64,000 bases of DNA from Loktanella atrilutea (GTDB lineage Bacteria > Pseudomonadota > Alphaproteobacteria > Rhodobacterales > Rhodobacteraceae). Below are positions 4,432 to 45,705 of the stretch, one piece after another (the stretch's first letter is position 1; the number at the start of each line of letters is the position of its first letter). The stretch is taken from contig NZ_FQUE01000001.1 of NCBI RefSeq assembly GCF_900128995.1, positions 682,001 through 746,000 on the forward strand, written 5' to 3'. Both the position numbers and the translations under genes were made by a program. The notes beneath the pieces are model-generated. The model had not been told where the DNA came from and searched no databases. It saw only the letters and a program-made list of their open reading frames with translations.

Positions 4432-4557
4432 TCAGATCGCGACGTCTGCGGCCCCGAGGGCCATGTGGCCCGCGCCGATCGCGGTCTTGCCGGCGATGCG
4501 GGCGGGCGTGCAGGCGGTGGCGGCGAGAAGGGCGGTCAGCATGAGCAGGCGGATCAC
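4432..4557 (-). CDS. Very small lipoprotein
   Basis: A 41-residue protein from a GTG start that overlaps the TGA of the upstream binding-protein gene (GTGA). It reads VIRLLMLTALLAATAC, a short lipoprotein signal peptide with an Arg and a lipobox ending in Cys16, then a ~25-residue mature tail (TPARIAGKTAIGAGHMALGAADVAI). An internal ATG at 4542 would lack the positive charge of the signal peptide, so GTG is preferred. Small Gly/Ala lipoproteins of this kind have no known function. The overlap implies translational coupling to the YejA-like gene. Confidence 0.6.
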   Translation of the reverse strand: MIRLLMLTALLAATACTPARIAGKTAIGAGHMALGAADVAI

Positions 4558-6368
4558 TCCTCCCACCACCAGACGTCGGGTTGCCAGCCGGGGGAATCGC
4601 CGAAGACCGGGATGACGTCCGGGTATTTCAACTGTTTCGCATGGGCGAGGCGGCTGACGTTCCACTGGTAGATCGGGATATAGTAGCGCCCCGCCGTCAG
4701 CACCCGGTCCAGCGCCTTGACCGAGGCCACGAAATCCTCTTGCGCCGTGACGGTGAGCAGTTGTCCGATCAGGGCGTCGACGGCGGGCGACTTCACACCC
4801 ATCAGATTGCGGGTGCCCGGCGTGTCGGCCATGGCCGAACCGAAGTAGAGGTATTGCTCGTTTCCCGGCGAGAGCGACAGGGCAAGGCGGCTGTAGGTCA
4901 TGTCGAAATCGAGCTGGTCAGTGCGGGCCTTGTACTGGGCGGGGTCCGTGACCTCGACCGTGGCGCGCACGCCGATCCGGGCAAGGCTTTCGACGAACAT
5001 GTCGACGATGGATTGATTCTCTGACCCGCCGCTTTGCAGCAGGATGTTGAAGGTGAAAGGCTGGCCCGCCGCGTTCTTCATCACGCCGTCCTGCACGGTC
5101 CAGCCCGCGGCCTCCATCTGTTTCAGGGCGGCGCGGGTGCCGGTGCGGTTGCGCTCTGTCCCGTCGCCGACGGGCAGGCTGTAGCCGTCCAGCGTGCCGG
5201 GGATCAGGTCGGCGGCGAAGGGGGCCAGCATCTCTGCCACGCGGCCCGTGGCGGGGCCGGGGTCCATGGCGAGGGGCGAGTTCGACCAGTAGGAGGTGAT
5301 GCGCGGCTGCGCGCTGCCGGTCATCGCCTCGTTGATGAATTCGAAGTTGAAGACGTGCAGCATCGCGTCGCGCACCCGCCAGTCGCTGAACTGGTCGTGG
5401 CGCGTGTTCATCACGAAACCGGTCATGCCTGACGGCAGTTGCTGCGGCAGCACGGATTTCACCACCGCGCCGGACTGCACGGCGGGAAAGTCGTACTGGC
5501 TGTCCCAGCGCGCCACGTTGAATTCGCGGTTGGAATTGACCTCGCCTGTCTTGAAGGCCTCGAAGGCGGCGGTCTCGTCGGCAAAGAACTCGATGCGCAC
5601 CTCGTCGAGGTTGTGCAGGCCGTTCTCGGTGGGCAGGTCGGCGCCCCAGTAGTCCGGATTGCGCTTCAGGCTGACGAAGCGGCCCGCCTCGAAATCATCG
5701 ATGACGTAGGGGCCGGTGGTGATCGGCACCATGTCAAGGCCGCTTTGCGCGAAATCGACGCCGTCCCACTGGGCCTTCTTCAGGATCGGGCGCAGGCCGG
5801 CCAGCATCACCAGTTCGCGGTCGGCTGTGTTGAAGGTCAGGCGCACGGTGCCGGGGGCGGTCTCCTCGATCTTCTCGACCTTTTCCCAGAAGCCGCGGTA
5901 GCGGCCGTTGCCCTGCGTGCCGAGTGTTTCGAAGGACCAGATCACGTCCTCCGCCGTCACCGGCGTCCCGTCGGAAAACCGGGCCTCGGGGTTCAGAACG
6001 TATTCCACCCACTCCCGGTTGGGCCCGGTTTCGACCGACTGGGCCAGTTGCGCGTATTCGGTGAAGGGCTCGTCGAGCGAGCGGACCATCAGGCTTTCGC
6101 CGATCAGGAACCGCAGCTGCCACGGCACGCTGCCCTTGAGGACGTAGGGGTTGAGGCTGTCGAAGCTGCCGACCTCTGCCGTGACGATGCGCCCGCCGGT
6201 CGTTGCGTCCGGATTGGCATAGGGCAGGGCGGTAAAATCGGCGGACAGGGCGGGTTCGCCGTACATCGCGATGCCATGCTGGGGTTCGGCCGGGGCCATG
6301 CCGGCAGGCAGGCAAAGGCCCGCCGCAAGCAGCAGCGGACGCAGCCGGGGGCGCGGTGGGAATGTCAT
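4554..6368 (-). CDS. YejA-like oligopeptide ABC transporter substrate-binding protein
   Basis: A 604-residue periplasmic solute-binding protein of family 5. A signal peptide (MTFPPRPRLRPLLLAAGLC...APA) is followed by PQHGIAMYGEPAL...LPYANPDATTGGRI, the characteristic start of YejA/microcin C-type peptide-binding proteins. The C-terminal region has the usual YIPIYQWNVSR and W-rich end. Such proteins deliver oligopeptides to YejBEF-type permeases, but no permease or ATPase gene is adjacent, so it is an orphan here. An in-frame Met 22 codons upstream (6434) is possible but lies before the signal peptide. A tiny lipoprotein gene overlaps its stop. Confidence 0.92.
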   Translation of the reverse strand: MTFPPRPRLRPLLLAAGLCLPAGMAPAEPQHGIAMYGEPALSADFTALPYANPDATTGGRIVTAEVGSFDSLNPYVLKGSVPWQLRFLIGESLMVRSLDEPFTEYAQLAQSVETGPNREWVEYVLNPEARFSDGTPVTAEDVIWSFETLGTQGNGRYRGFWEKVEKIEETAPGTVRLTFNTADRELVMLAGLRPILKKAQWDGVDFAQSGLDMVPITTGPYVIDDFEAGRFVSLKRNPDYWGADLPTENGLHNLDEVRIEFFADETAAFEAFKTGEVNSNREFNVARWDSQYDFPAVQSGAVVKSVLPQQLPSGMTGFVMNTRHDQFSDWRVRDAMLHVFNFEFINEAMTGSAQPRITSYWSNSPLAMDPGPATGRVAEMLAPFAADLIPGTLDGYSLPVGDGTERNRTGTRAALKQMEAAGWTVQDGVMKNAAGQPFTFNILLQSGGSENQSIVDMFVESLARIGVRATVEVTDPAQYKARTDQLDFDMTYSRLALSLSPGNEQYLYFGSAMADTPGTRNLMGVKSPAVDALIGQLLTVTAQEDFVASVKALDRVLTAGRYYIPIYQWNVSRLAHAKQLKYPDVIPVFGDSPGWQPDVWWWEE

Positions 6369-6445
6369 GGCGGTGGTGTCCCTGTCGGTCTGGTTGTTTC
6401 CGGTGAAGCTAAAGAAGGTTTCAAGGTTTTTCAAACTTTTGCCTT

Positions 6446-6474
6446 GGATACCTGCGCGGAAGGGATTATACAGA
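6446..6474 (+). promoter_or_regulatory. Possible promoter of the small RNA
   Basis: TTGGAT and TATACA are separated by exactly 17 bp. Both match sigma-70 consensus only partially (TTG core and TATA core). Initiation about 7 nt downstream would give an RNA of roughly 75 nt ending at the terminator near 6554. Positions are approximate. Confidence 0.3.
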
Positions 6475-6479
6475 ACTCA

Positions 6480-6554
6480 CTGCTCGATAGGTTTCTTGCC
6501 TGTATGAAACCTGCCTCAATAACTACACCCCGGCTTCGCGCCGGGGTTTTTTTT
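6480..6554 (+). ncRNA. Candidate trans-acting small RNA
   Basis: The segment contains a perfect 7-bp hairpin AGGTTTC / GAAACCT (6489-6495 with 6506-6512, 10-nt loop TTGCCTGTAT). A single-stranded A/C-rich linker follows, then a Rho-independent terminator with a 7-bp stem CCCCGGC / GCCGGGG (6528-6546) and eight T (6547-6554). No plus-strand gene lies upstream, because the neighbouring gene runs the other way, so the terminator must end an independent short transcript. This two-hairpin architecture resembles Hfq-dependent sRNAs. No Rfam family was recognised by eye. Confidence 0.5.
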
Positions 6555-6634
6555 CGTCCGACGCCATGTTTTGAAGGGGTTAACGCGGGTCGAATCGGGG
6601 GGCAAGGGCCAATCGCCCCGCCCACTGTGCGAGG

Positions 6635-6689
6635 GCGACTCAGTCAAATCCACTTCGTTTCGCAACCCGCTGTCCTGAGTCGCTTTTTT
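6635..6689 (+). terminator. Second orphan hairpin with T6 tail
   Basis: GCGACTCAG (6635-6643) pairs perfectly with CTGAGTCGC (6675-6683) around a 31-nt loop, followed immediately by TTTTTT. It could end another short RNA started after 6554, or act as an attenuator in the patatin leader. Confidence 0.45.
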
Positions 6690-6808
6690 GCGAATCAGGG
6701 GAGGGCCGGATAATTTTCGGGTAAGGTGTCGGCGGTGCCGAGCGACCTTGGCATCCGCGGGCCGTCCATGCGATGACACTGCAGTCGCAGCACGAAGGGA
6801 CAACCGCC

Positions 6809-7840
6809 ATGATCCGCATCAATCTCGGCCTGCAGGGCGGCGGTGCCCACGGTGCATTCACCTGGGGCGTGCTCGACCGTCTGCTGGACGAAGAGGACAT
6901 CGAGGTGGCTGCGATTTCGGGCACCTCGGCGGGGGCGATGAACGCGGCAGCCTTCAAGGCGGGGCTCGTCGGCGGCGGGCGGCAGGGCGCCCGCGACAAT
7001 CTCGACTGGTTCTGGGAACAGGTCGGCGCAGTCAACGCACCGTTCCTGCAGGACTGGCTGGCGGCAATGGCGCCTTCGGTCAAGGGATGGGCCGCGGCGC
7101 TGGAGCTCTCGCCCGCCTACCGCGCCTTCGACAGCGTGACGCGCATGACGTCGCCCTATGTCTACGGGCCCATGCTGCGCAACCCGCTGGCGCGGATCCT
7201 GGGGGATCTGCGGTTCGAGCATGTTTGCAGCGCCGCGGGGCCCCGCCTGTTCGTGGGTGCGACCAACGTGCGGACCGGCAAGATTCGCGTCTTCGCGGGG
7301 GAGGAGATTACCGTTGACGCGCTGCTCGCCTCTGCCTGCCTGCCCACGCTGTTCCAGGCGGTAGAGATCGCCGACCCCGCGACCGGCAGGACGGAAGCGT
7401 TCTGGGATGGCGGATACACCGGCAATCCCGCGCTCTTTCCCCTGTATGAAAAGGACCTGCCCGACGACATCCTGATCGTCGGCATCAATCCGATCGTGAG
7501 AGAGGAACTGCCGAAGACACCCGAAGCCATCGCCAACCGCATCAACGAGATTGGGTTCAACACCTCTCTCTTGCGGGAGTTGCGGTCGGTCGATTTCGTG
7601 CGGCGGCTGCTGGACGATCACAAGATCACGCCCGGCACGATGAAGCGCGTGCTGATCCACATGGTCGACGACGACCACCTGATGAACGAGCTGAACGTGG
7701 CGACCAAGACCATCCCGGTGCCCGTCATCCTCGCCCGGCTGAAGGCGGCGGGGCGGGCGGCGATGGACGGCTTCCTGAAGGATCACAAGGGCGATCTTGG
7801 CCAGCGCGACTCGGTCGATCTGCGCGCGATGTTCAGCTGA
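6809..7840 (+). CDS. Patatin-like phospholipase
   Basis: A 343-residue protein with the patatin Ser-Asp dyad. The oxyanion-hole motif GGGAHG is at residues 10-15, the nucleophile GTSAG at 38-42 (Ser40), and DGG at 200-202 (Asp200). It lacks a signal peptide and is probably cytosolic or membrane-associated, hydrolysing acyl esters of phospholipids. The start at MIRINLGL follows AAGGGA; an in-frame Met 36 bases upstream has poorer context. Its 3' end overlaps the convergent lysE-type gene by 8 bp. A gene-free region with a candidate sRNA lies upstream. Confidence 0.93.
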   Translation: MIRINLGLQGGGAHGAFTWGVLDRLLDEEDIEVAAISGTSAGAMNAAAFKAGLVGGGRQGARDNLDWFWEQVGAVNAPFLQDWLAAMAPSVKGWAAALELSPAYRAFDSVTRMTSPYVYGPMLRNPLARILGDLRFEHVCSAAGPRLFVGATNVRTGKIRVFAGEEITVDALLASACLPTLFQAVEIADPATGRTEAFWDGGYTGNPALFPLYEKDLPDDILIVGINPIVREELPKTPEAIANRINEIGFNTSLLRELRSVDFVRRLLDDHKITPGTMKRVLIHMVDDDHLMNELNVATKTIPVPVILARLKAAGRAAMDGFLKDHKGDLGQRDSVDLRAMFS

Positions 7841-45319: not shown

Positions 45320-45352
45320 CCGGTCCCTTTCACGCCCCGCGCCGATCCCCCC

Positions 45353-45381
45353 TTGCCACTCCGCCCACTGGCGCCTATCTG
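45353..45381 (+). promoter_or_regulatory. ssrA promoter
   Basis: TTGCCA (45353-45358) and TATCTG (45376-45381) are 17 bp apart. This places initiation near 45388, just upstream of the acceptor segment. Confidence 0.6.
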
Positions 45382-45387
45382 TAAGGT

Positions 45388-45705
45388 GTCCTTCGGGACT
45401 ATGGACATAAACGCGCTCGTAATAAGCGGATCGGACCCGGGGGCGGTACCCGGCGGCTCCACCAACACTCTGGTCATTTGCCAGCGATGGGGCCGAAACA
45501 GGATCGACGAACGTCTAAAGGGGTTATGCTTTGTCCCGGTGAGTTACCACCGTTATCGGTACGAAAAAGCTAGTTGCAAATGACAACAAAGCACCGATGG
45601 CCCTCGCAGCGTAAGCTGTGCGGAATATCGAAACCTTAAGCCCTTAGGTTTTGCGACCTAAGGCGGGGTCCGCAGGTACCTGGCAACAGAAACCTGCACC
45701 TTTCC
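45388..45705 (+). ncRNA. ssrA: Two-piece tmRNA, circularly permuted gene
   Basis: The gene order is permuted as in other alphaproteobacteria. The acceptor piece comes first and ends in CCACCA at 45464; a short spacer (45465-45488) follows, then the coding piece from 45489 (GGGGCCG) to about 45705. GGGGCCG pairs with CGGCTCC to give a 7-bp acceptor stem with a G3-U pair, the alanine identity element. The T-arm is CCGGG-GGCGGTA-CCCGG. The resume codon GCA at 45576 starts the tag ANDNKAPMALAA, ending at TAA 45612-45614. The coding piece ends with a GCAGGT/ACCTGC pseudoknot stem. tmRNA rescues stalled ribosomes and tags products for proteolysis. Outer ends are approximate. Confidence 0.95.

Follow-up and report, generated by a model that had tools for sequence, protein, structure and literature searches.

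A nearly invariant small RNA gene of the Rhodobacteraceae, predicted back to back with a solute-binding protein gene

The locus and its predicted promoters

The stretch of DNA analysed here, called the window, comprises 64,000 nucleotides from the genome of Loktanella atrilutea. A gene for a solute-binding protein lies on its minus strand, and the first gene downstream on the plus strand encodes a patatin-like phospholipase. The segment between them that runs from the promoter through T8 is, as judged by comparing its sequence with that of its relatives, a stand-alone small RNA gene with its own promoter and intrinsic terminator. The features of the locus are the following.

4554-6368, minus strand: divergent gene for a family-5 ABC solute-binding protein (PF00496)
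6406-6411, minus strand: putative -10 box TAGCTT of the divergent promoter (conserved as TAG..T, 17 bp from TTGAAA, in 201 upstream regions)
6429-6434, minus strand: putative -35 box TTGAAA of the divergent promoter (from the profile of 201 upstream regions)
6432-6443, no strand: conserved block CAAACTTTTNNC from the divergent -35 to the sRNA -35 (0.5 to 1.7 bits per position at -47 to -36 in 201 distinct regions)
6444-6554, plus strand: the whole unit, promoter through T8, as read from the window sequence
6444-6449, plus strand: -35 box TTGGAT of the sRNA promoter (TTGG conserved; T at -35 carries 2.00 bits in 201 regions)
6467-6472, plus strand: -10 box TATACA of the sRNA promoter, after a 17-bp spacer and followed by six bases and A6479
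6479-6554, plus strand: sRNA of about 75 nt, with a probable +1 at A6479, where invariance sets in sharply
6479-6518, plus strand: nearly invariant 40-nt block (135 of 135 distinct aligned rows; 33 of 36 BLAST-matched genomes)
6488-6513, plus strand: hairpin 1, 8 bp, with the 10-nt loop UUGCCUGUAU at 6496-6505 (fold and sequence)
6514-6526, plus strand: single-stranded linker that starts with CCUCAAUAACU (sequence and alignment), a candidate Hfq site
6527-6554, plus strand: intrinsic terminator, 8-bp stem and T8 (6 of 8 pairs changed on both sides)
6773-7840, plus strand: patatin-like phospholipase (PF01734), first downstream gene in the window

In hairpin 1, the arms AGGTTTC (6489-6495) and GAAACCT (6506-6512) are extended to 8 bp by an extra U-G pair. 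The motif UGCCU occurs twice, first in the loop of this hairpin and then at 6512-6516, where it runs from the hairpin's 3' foot into the start of the linker. The terminator has the arms CCCCGGC (6528-6534) and GCCGGGG (6540-6546), followed by T8 (6547-6554). An 80-nt RNA from the locus folds with -25.6 kcal/mol (z = -3.8), and none of 200 shuffles is equally stable. Perfect stems of 7 bp or more that include no fewer than 5 G/C and lead into at least six T are present at two places in the 64-kb window when both strands are counted and at none in 20 mononucleotide shuffles, of which one strand each was searched. From this follows that the terminator at 6527-6554 is more than a product of chance.

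A first-pass annotation, made from the letters of the window, had described these elements as an independent RNA gene of ~75 nt, and its coordinates and wording were right within a base or two. The plus-strand terminator with eight T is found at 6528-6554; the absence of a plus-strand gene upstream holds, since the neighbour at 4554-6368 is on the minus strand; the perfect 7-bp hairpin is present and gains one pair; and the -35/-10 pair with 17-bp spacing, TTGGAT/TATACA, has a weak consensus and is conserved in 201 regions. The comparative data, i.e., conservation, promoter profile and terminator, support the reading as an independent gene.

By inspection, the sRNA promoter agrees with the consensus in 7 of 12 positions, and a promoter scan with a threshold of 9 of 12 called none at the sRNA locus. 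By consensus alone the promoter would be weak, and it is the conservation seen in the compared sequences that establishes it, as a promoter of sigma-70-like type. The profile of 201 upstream regions has TTGG at -35, TATAAA at -12 and A at +1; the -10 box reads TATAAA in 107 of these regions and TATACA, as in the window, in 15, and the gap from the -10 to A+1 is six bases in 192 of the 201. When spacers are counted automatically over the same regions, 16 bp are obtained in 100, 17 bp in 93 and 18 bp in 8. This mixture reflects the automatic choice between TTGGAC and TGGACT, and with the T invariant at -35 the spacer is 17 bp.

The regions in the promoter profile (201), like the loci in the neighbourhood sets (215 and 192) and the matches in named contigs described below, were required to contain a 22-nt core of the RNA, so that identity of the core within them is a result of selection; in the sets of 215, 192 and 201 loci, moreover, some loci share genomes, and some contigs occur twice. 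A similar solute-binding protein gene lies divergently upstream in 201 of the 215 core-bearing loci, and the upstream gene is divergent in 185 of 192 loci as called with a simple gene caller of our own, which was also used for the other neighbourhood calls in the 192 loci and for the target sites below. The exact sequence CAAACTTTT lies over and between the two -35 boxes in 136 of the 201 upstream regions, and the block at 6432-6443 to which CAAACTTTTNNC corresponds is possibly a regulator site common to the sRNA and the solute-binding protein. We infer from these sequences a control region shared by the RNA and the solute-binding protein gene, and the back-to-back arrangement of the promoters suggests that the two are co-regulated.

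The window holds a further RNA gene at 45349-45700 (plus strand), an alphaproteobacterial tmRNA gene with 294.9 bits, which is matched by the permuted-tmRNA model as well.

Distribution and constraint

When positions 6430-6560 were compared by blastn with 61 genomes, 36 matched: the genome of the window itself and all but one (G008) of the other 36 genomes from Rhodobacteraceae. None of the 24 genomes from other families matched in this search. A covariance model, R1, was built from 135 distinct aligned copies; it gives 102 bits at the window locus, which is the single strong copy in its genome, and it finds the RNA in 384 of 394 Rhodobacteraceae genomes and in 345 of the 347 good ones. The model accordingly misses 10 of the 394, two of them good. 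One of the 384 is doubtful, since the best match of that genome (G421), locus L194, is cut by a contig end; this locus was set aside, as was L195, a weak secondary match. The RNA occurs once per genome in all but about 10 of the 384. In the genus of a named Paracoccus species, R1 matches 124 of 125 genomes and misses one.

A draw over the whole class gave matches to R1 in 5 of 385 genomes, all five in Rhodobacteraceae; the 20 misses listed by name belong to other families, and 360 further misses are unlisted. In named genome contigs the 22-nt core was found in at least 118 stretches. Among the matches listed, the titles name Rhodobacteraceae or the wider Rhodobacterales (Paracoccus, Ruegeria, Roseobacter, Sulfitobacter, Cereibacter and others), and a few only Alphaproteobacteria. 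Neomegalonema, assigned by NCBI to a different family within this order, is also among the core matches listed. By these searches the RNA is a mark of the Rhodobacteraceae and their near neighbours. An origin in phage was considered and rejected, as the exact core is absent from viral contigs and phage records gave no match; so was an origin in plasmids, the four plasmid matches being to Paracoccus replicons that measure 1.46 to 2.24 Mb.

The constraint on the RNA is concentrated in its first part. In the alignment on which R1 is built (A1), from which duplicate rows and two loci cut by contig ends had been removed beforehand, all 135 distinct copies agree at each of the first 40 positions. 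This number must be read with the search in mind, since 22 of the 40 nucleotides are the search pattern and thus partly selected, while the other 18 are not. The BLAST loci are free from selection for the core: the best 30 of the 36 all carry it, and their invariance begins at A6479. Of the other six BLAST genomes, three have the 40-mer unchanged, two differ from it once and one differs six times, so that the exact 40 nt are present in 33 of 36 BLAST-matched genomes. A separate inspection covered 25 true copies, of which five were chosen by assembly size and 20 mostly as low scorers. In this set 21 copies are exact; three differ at a single position, always in the loop, and one at six positions, of which three belong to the loop. 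From the four changed copies it is seen that six of nine changes fall in the loop of hairpin 1, that the loop GCCU is retained in all four and the loop UGCCU in three, and that the second UGCCU and the 5' GCUCGA are retained in all. The presence in 384 of 394 family genomes of a 40-nt core that hardly changes implies severe constraint.

In the terminator the picture is different in kind, and it bears on a suggestion of the first-pass annotation that covarying stems be sought. For the terminator stem they are found: six of its eight pairs have changes on both sides, 99.1% of the cells are paired, and 115 cells are changed on both sides, as compared with 27.8 in shuffles, with none of 500 shuffles as high. 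When the structure was slid along the alignment as a control, at most 8 cells were changed on both sides. The covarying stem indicates, by comparison of sequences, an intrinsic terminator maintained by selection. For hairpin 1 there is no such signal, because its pairs do not vary across the 135 rows of A1; covariation speaks here neither for nor against the hairpin.

The same annotation had made its proposal depend on conservation among related genomes, and conserved the RNA is, in 35 of 36 other family genomes by blastn and in 384 of 394 by R1. What the present analysis adds to it is how little 40 nt of the RNA vary, how widely the RNA is spread over the family, and a pair of promoters arranged back to back. 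From the comparative sequence data, the locus is almost certainly an expressed sRNA gene.

A probable trans-acting RNA and its alternatives

A single-stranded 5' end, a hairpin with an open loop, an A/U linker and a terminator with a long U-tail make up the layout of Hfq-dependent, trans-acting sRNAs, and from our analysis we consider it probable, with moderate confidence, that the RNA belongs to this base-pairing type. The mechanism would then be as follows. Transcription would start at A6479 and yield a primary RNA of about 75 nt, whose A/U-containing linker and U-tail Hfq would bind. Acting in trans, the sRNA would form short base pairings with its exposed 5' ACUGCUCGAU, loop UUGCCUGUAU and linker CCUCAAUAACU. 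The two copies of UGCCU would suit AGGCA in the vicinity of ribosome-binding sites, by which several mRNAs could be repressed.

Base pairing, on the other hand, usually demands less than near-invariance of 40 nt including a stem, and the nearly frozen block of the present RNA therefore counts against the trans-acting reading. Exact 10-mer complements of three segments of the RNA were sought in eight genomes, with the region from -60 to +25 of a called start counted as a gene start; 218 of the 227 non-self sites were examined, the other nine being left without a flank. The sites at gene starts number 1 of 66, 3 of 30 and 5 of 122 for the three segments, shares that were compared solely with our own estimate of about 4% from gene density, and among the 218 sites no concentration at gene starts is visible. 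Two of the three patterns exceed the counts for the reversed patterns, and this excess goes with codon frame, since the sites inside genes are mostly in one frame. In the genome of the window there are two non-self exact sites, neither of them at a called gene start. In the genome that we take as that of R. sphaeroides, the exact complement of the sRNA loop, ATACAGGCAA, is found 21 nt before the start codon (L278, 1501-1510) of a gene which we take to be prrB/regB, encoding the PrrB/RegB protein; this site is an anecdote.

Pairing with the neighbouring genes was evaluated at 60 random loci with 20 shuffles each. In the leader of the solute-binding protein gene, the mean z is -0.52 for the 5' end and -0.66 for the loop, and in the other six tests the mean z lies between -0.08 and -0.25, with 2 to 7 of 60 loci below -2. 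There is thus a faint lean towards neighbour targeting, at most slightly above the shuffles, and we do not count it as a result.

The alternative that survives best is that the nearly invariant hairpin region of 40 nt is recognised whole by a protein, or by an abundant RNA, and that the RNA titrates its partner. To this we give a limited chance, and a slightly smaller one to the more specific proposal that the 40-nt body, instead of offering seeds for mRNAs, is recognised as a unit and serves throughout the family as a hairpin decoy or scaffold for a conserved protein or RNA. Recognition as a unit would explain why hardly anything changes in stem, loop and flanks: the invariance spans the three alike, and neither the 10-mer search nor the search for pairing with neighbours gave a target signal. 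Recognition of the stem would also fit the fact that the tolerated changes, known from four copies only, are mostly in the loop. However, in its terminator, linker and U-tail the RNA resembles the usual Hfq-dependent sRNAs, and no matching protein motif was identified short of a systematic search.

It is improbable that the RNA is instead a cis-acting leader or attenuator of bdhA, on the pattern of UpsM, which is processed from a leader. The proposal arises from the gene order: bdhA, identified as a 3-hydroxybutyrate dehydrogenase gene from its R. sphaeroides copy, comes first after the RNA and on the same strand in 144 of the 192 core-bearing loci. In the remaining loci, as called with the simple caller, the gene that comes next either faces the other way (27 of 192) or is a different one on the same strand (21 of 192), and in the window it is the patatin gene. 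The 27 loci with the next gene on the other strand make a leader role unlikely and favour action in trans over action in cis. The two predicted hairpins, furthermore, are separate and complete, and no anti-terminator pairing appears in the folds. As to the window, positions 6547-6773, between the RNA and the patatin gene, contain no bdhA.

Relation to known small RNAs

At the locus in the window, all Rfam 15 families stay below their gathering scores, in keeping with the first-pass annotation, which had recognised no known family. The best weak match is SorX (RF02784) with 24.0 bits (E = 0.0017 for the stretch) at a cut-off of 46.6. From this match, and from a similar layout with hairpin, C-rich linker and terminator, one could take the RNA for a diverged member of the SorX/SorY family. 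We hold this to be very improbable. Matches of SorX below the cut-off are also obtained in control genomes, in 11 of 14 with E up to 10 and in 4 of 14 with E up to 0.01, and in the genome of the window there is a separate SorX with 64.8 bits, to which R1 gives only 16.3 bits.

The SorX in the genome of the window is L001 (G000:C30:51198-51267), and a second SorX-like RNA with 46.1 bits is L002 (G000:C26:285635-285691); both are far from the sRNA of the window. In another genome, G082, our RNA is at 1,443,994-1,444,071 on the minus strand, flanked by bdhA and the solute-binding protein gene, SorX is at 2,598,225 (L199, C4:2598225-2598299) and a SorX-like RNA is at 1,632,636 (L200, C4:1632636-1632725). 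The published positions in R. sphaeroides 2.4.1, as given in the accessible text of PMC6238624, are 2,598,224 for SorX and 1,632,642 for the 5' end of SorY. Since these agree with G082 within a few bases, G082 is taken as R. sphaeroides 2.4.1. SorX and SorY thus exist elsewhere in that genome alongside the RNA, and with separate loci in one genome and 24.0 bits against a cut-off of 46.6, the RNA was rejected as an ortholog of either.

SorX of R. sphaeroides resembles the RNA of the window in size, in the order of hairpin, C-rich linker and terminator, and in bacterial family; it differs in sequence and in locus (2,598,225 as against 1,443,994-1,444,071), and, by the accessible text of PMC6238624, it is cut from a 3' UTR, whereas the RNA of the window has its own predicted promoter. 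SorY, according to the accessible parts of PMC6238624 and PMC8307010, is similar to the RNA of the window in having its own promoter and needing no processing, but its published 5' end at 1,632,642 lies apart from the ortholog of our RNA near 1,444,071. UpsM and PcrZ are likewise sRNAs of the same bacterial family. Their processing sites, in the published text that was accessible, are at 694,720 and 2,565,914, away from the ortholog, and UpsM derives from an mRNA leader. By position in these sequences, the RNA of the window is not SorX, SorY, UpsM or PcrZ. As an observation on the known RNAs themselves, the Rfam SorX model gives 43.6 bits in G082 at the published SorY position, slightly below the cut-off of 46.6, and 34.4 bits at a third place; from these scores SorX and SorY may be one family.

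It is possible that the RNA is identical to intergenic 60 or intergenic 134 of P. denitrificans, which are described in the accessible text of PMC5107571 as RNAs of 80 and 84 nt that are conserved in Rhodobacteraceae and have relatives in other orders. They are like the RNA of the window in being intergenic and conserved in the family; they are unlike it in their relatives, as neither the blastn set nor the class-wide draw gave a match to our RNA outside the family. Their coordinates are absent among the matches of R1 listed for the Paracoccus genus. The open literature that was searched, with subscription papers and supplementary tables outside its scope, contains no name for the RNA, which an RNA-seq list may hold, and a text search with pieces of the sequence returned only unrelated papers, as judged by titles and openings of abstracts.

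That the RNA encodes a tiny peptide from the ATG at 6505, which does lie within the invariant block, is hardly credible, because the length after the block varies by one or two bases among copies, so that the frame shifts, and because by inspection the frame in the window enters the terminator without a stop.

We return to the trans-acting, base-pairing sRNA as the preferred reading. As an sRNA it would be of a kind already known, though an unusually constrained one, and its interest lies in how strong this constraint is, in its nearly complete presence across the family and in the pairing of promoters. To the Rhodobacteraceae belong marine roseobacters, which are abundant, as well as Paracoccus and the phototrophic model R. 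sphaeroides, and for this family the RNA raises the question of what set of targets, or what partner, freezes stem and loop together. If the decoy or scaffold reading were true, the RNA would belong to a functional class that is new, its transcription starting back to back with that of a nutrient-uptake protein.
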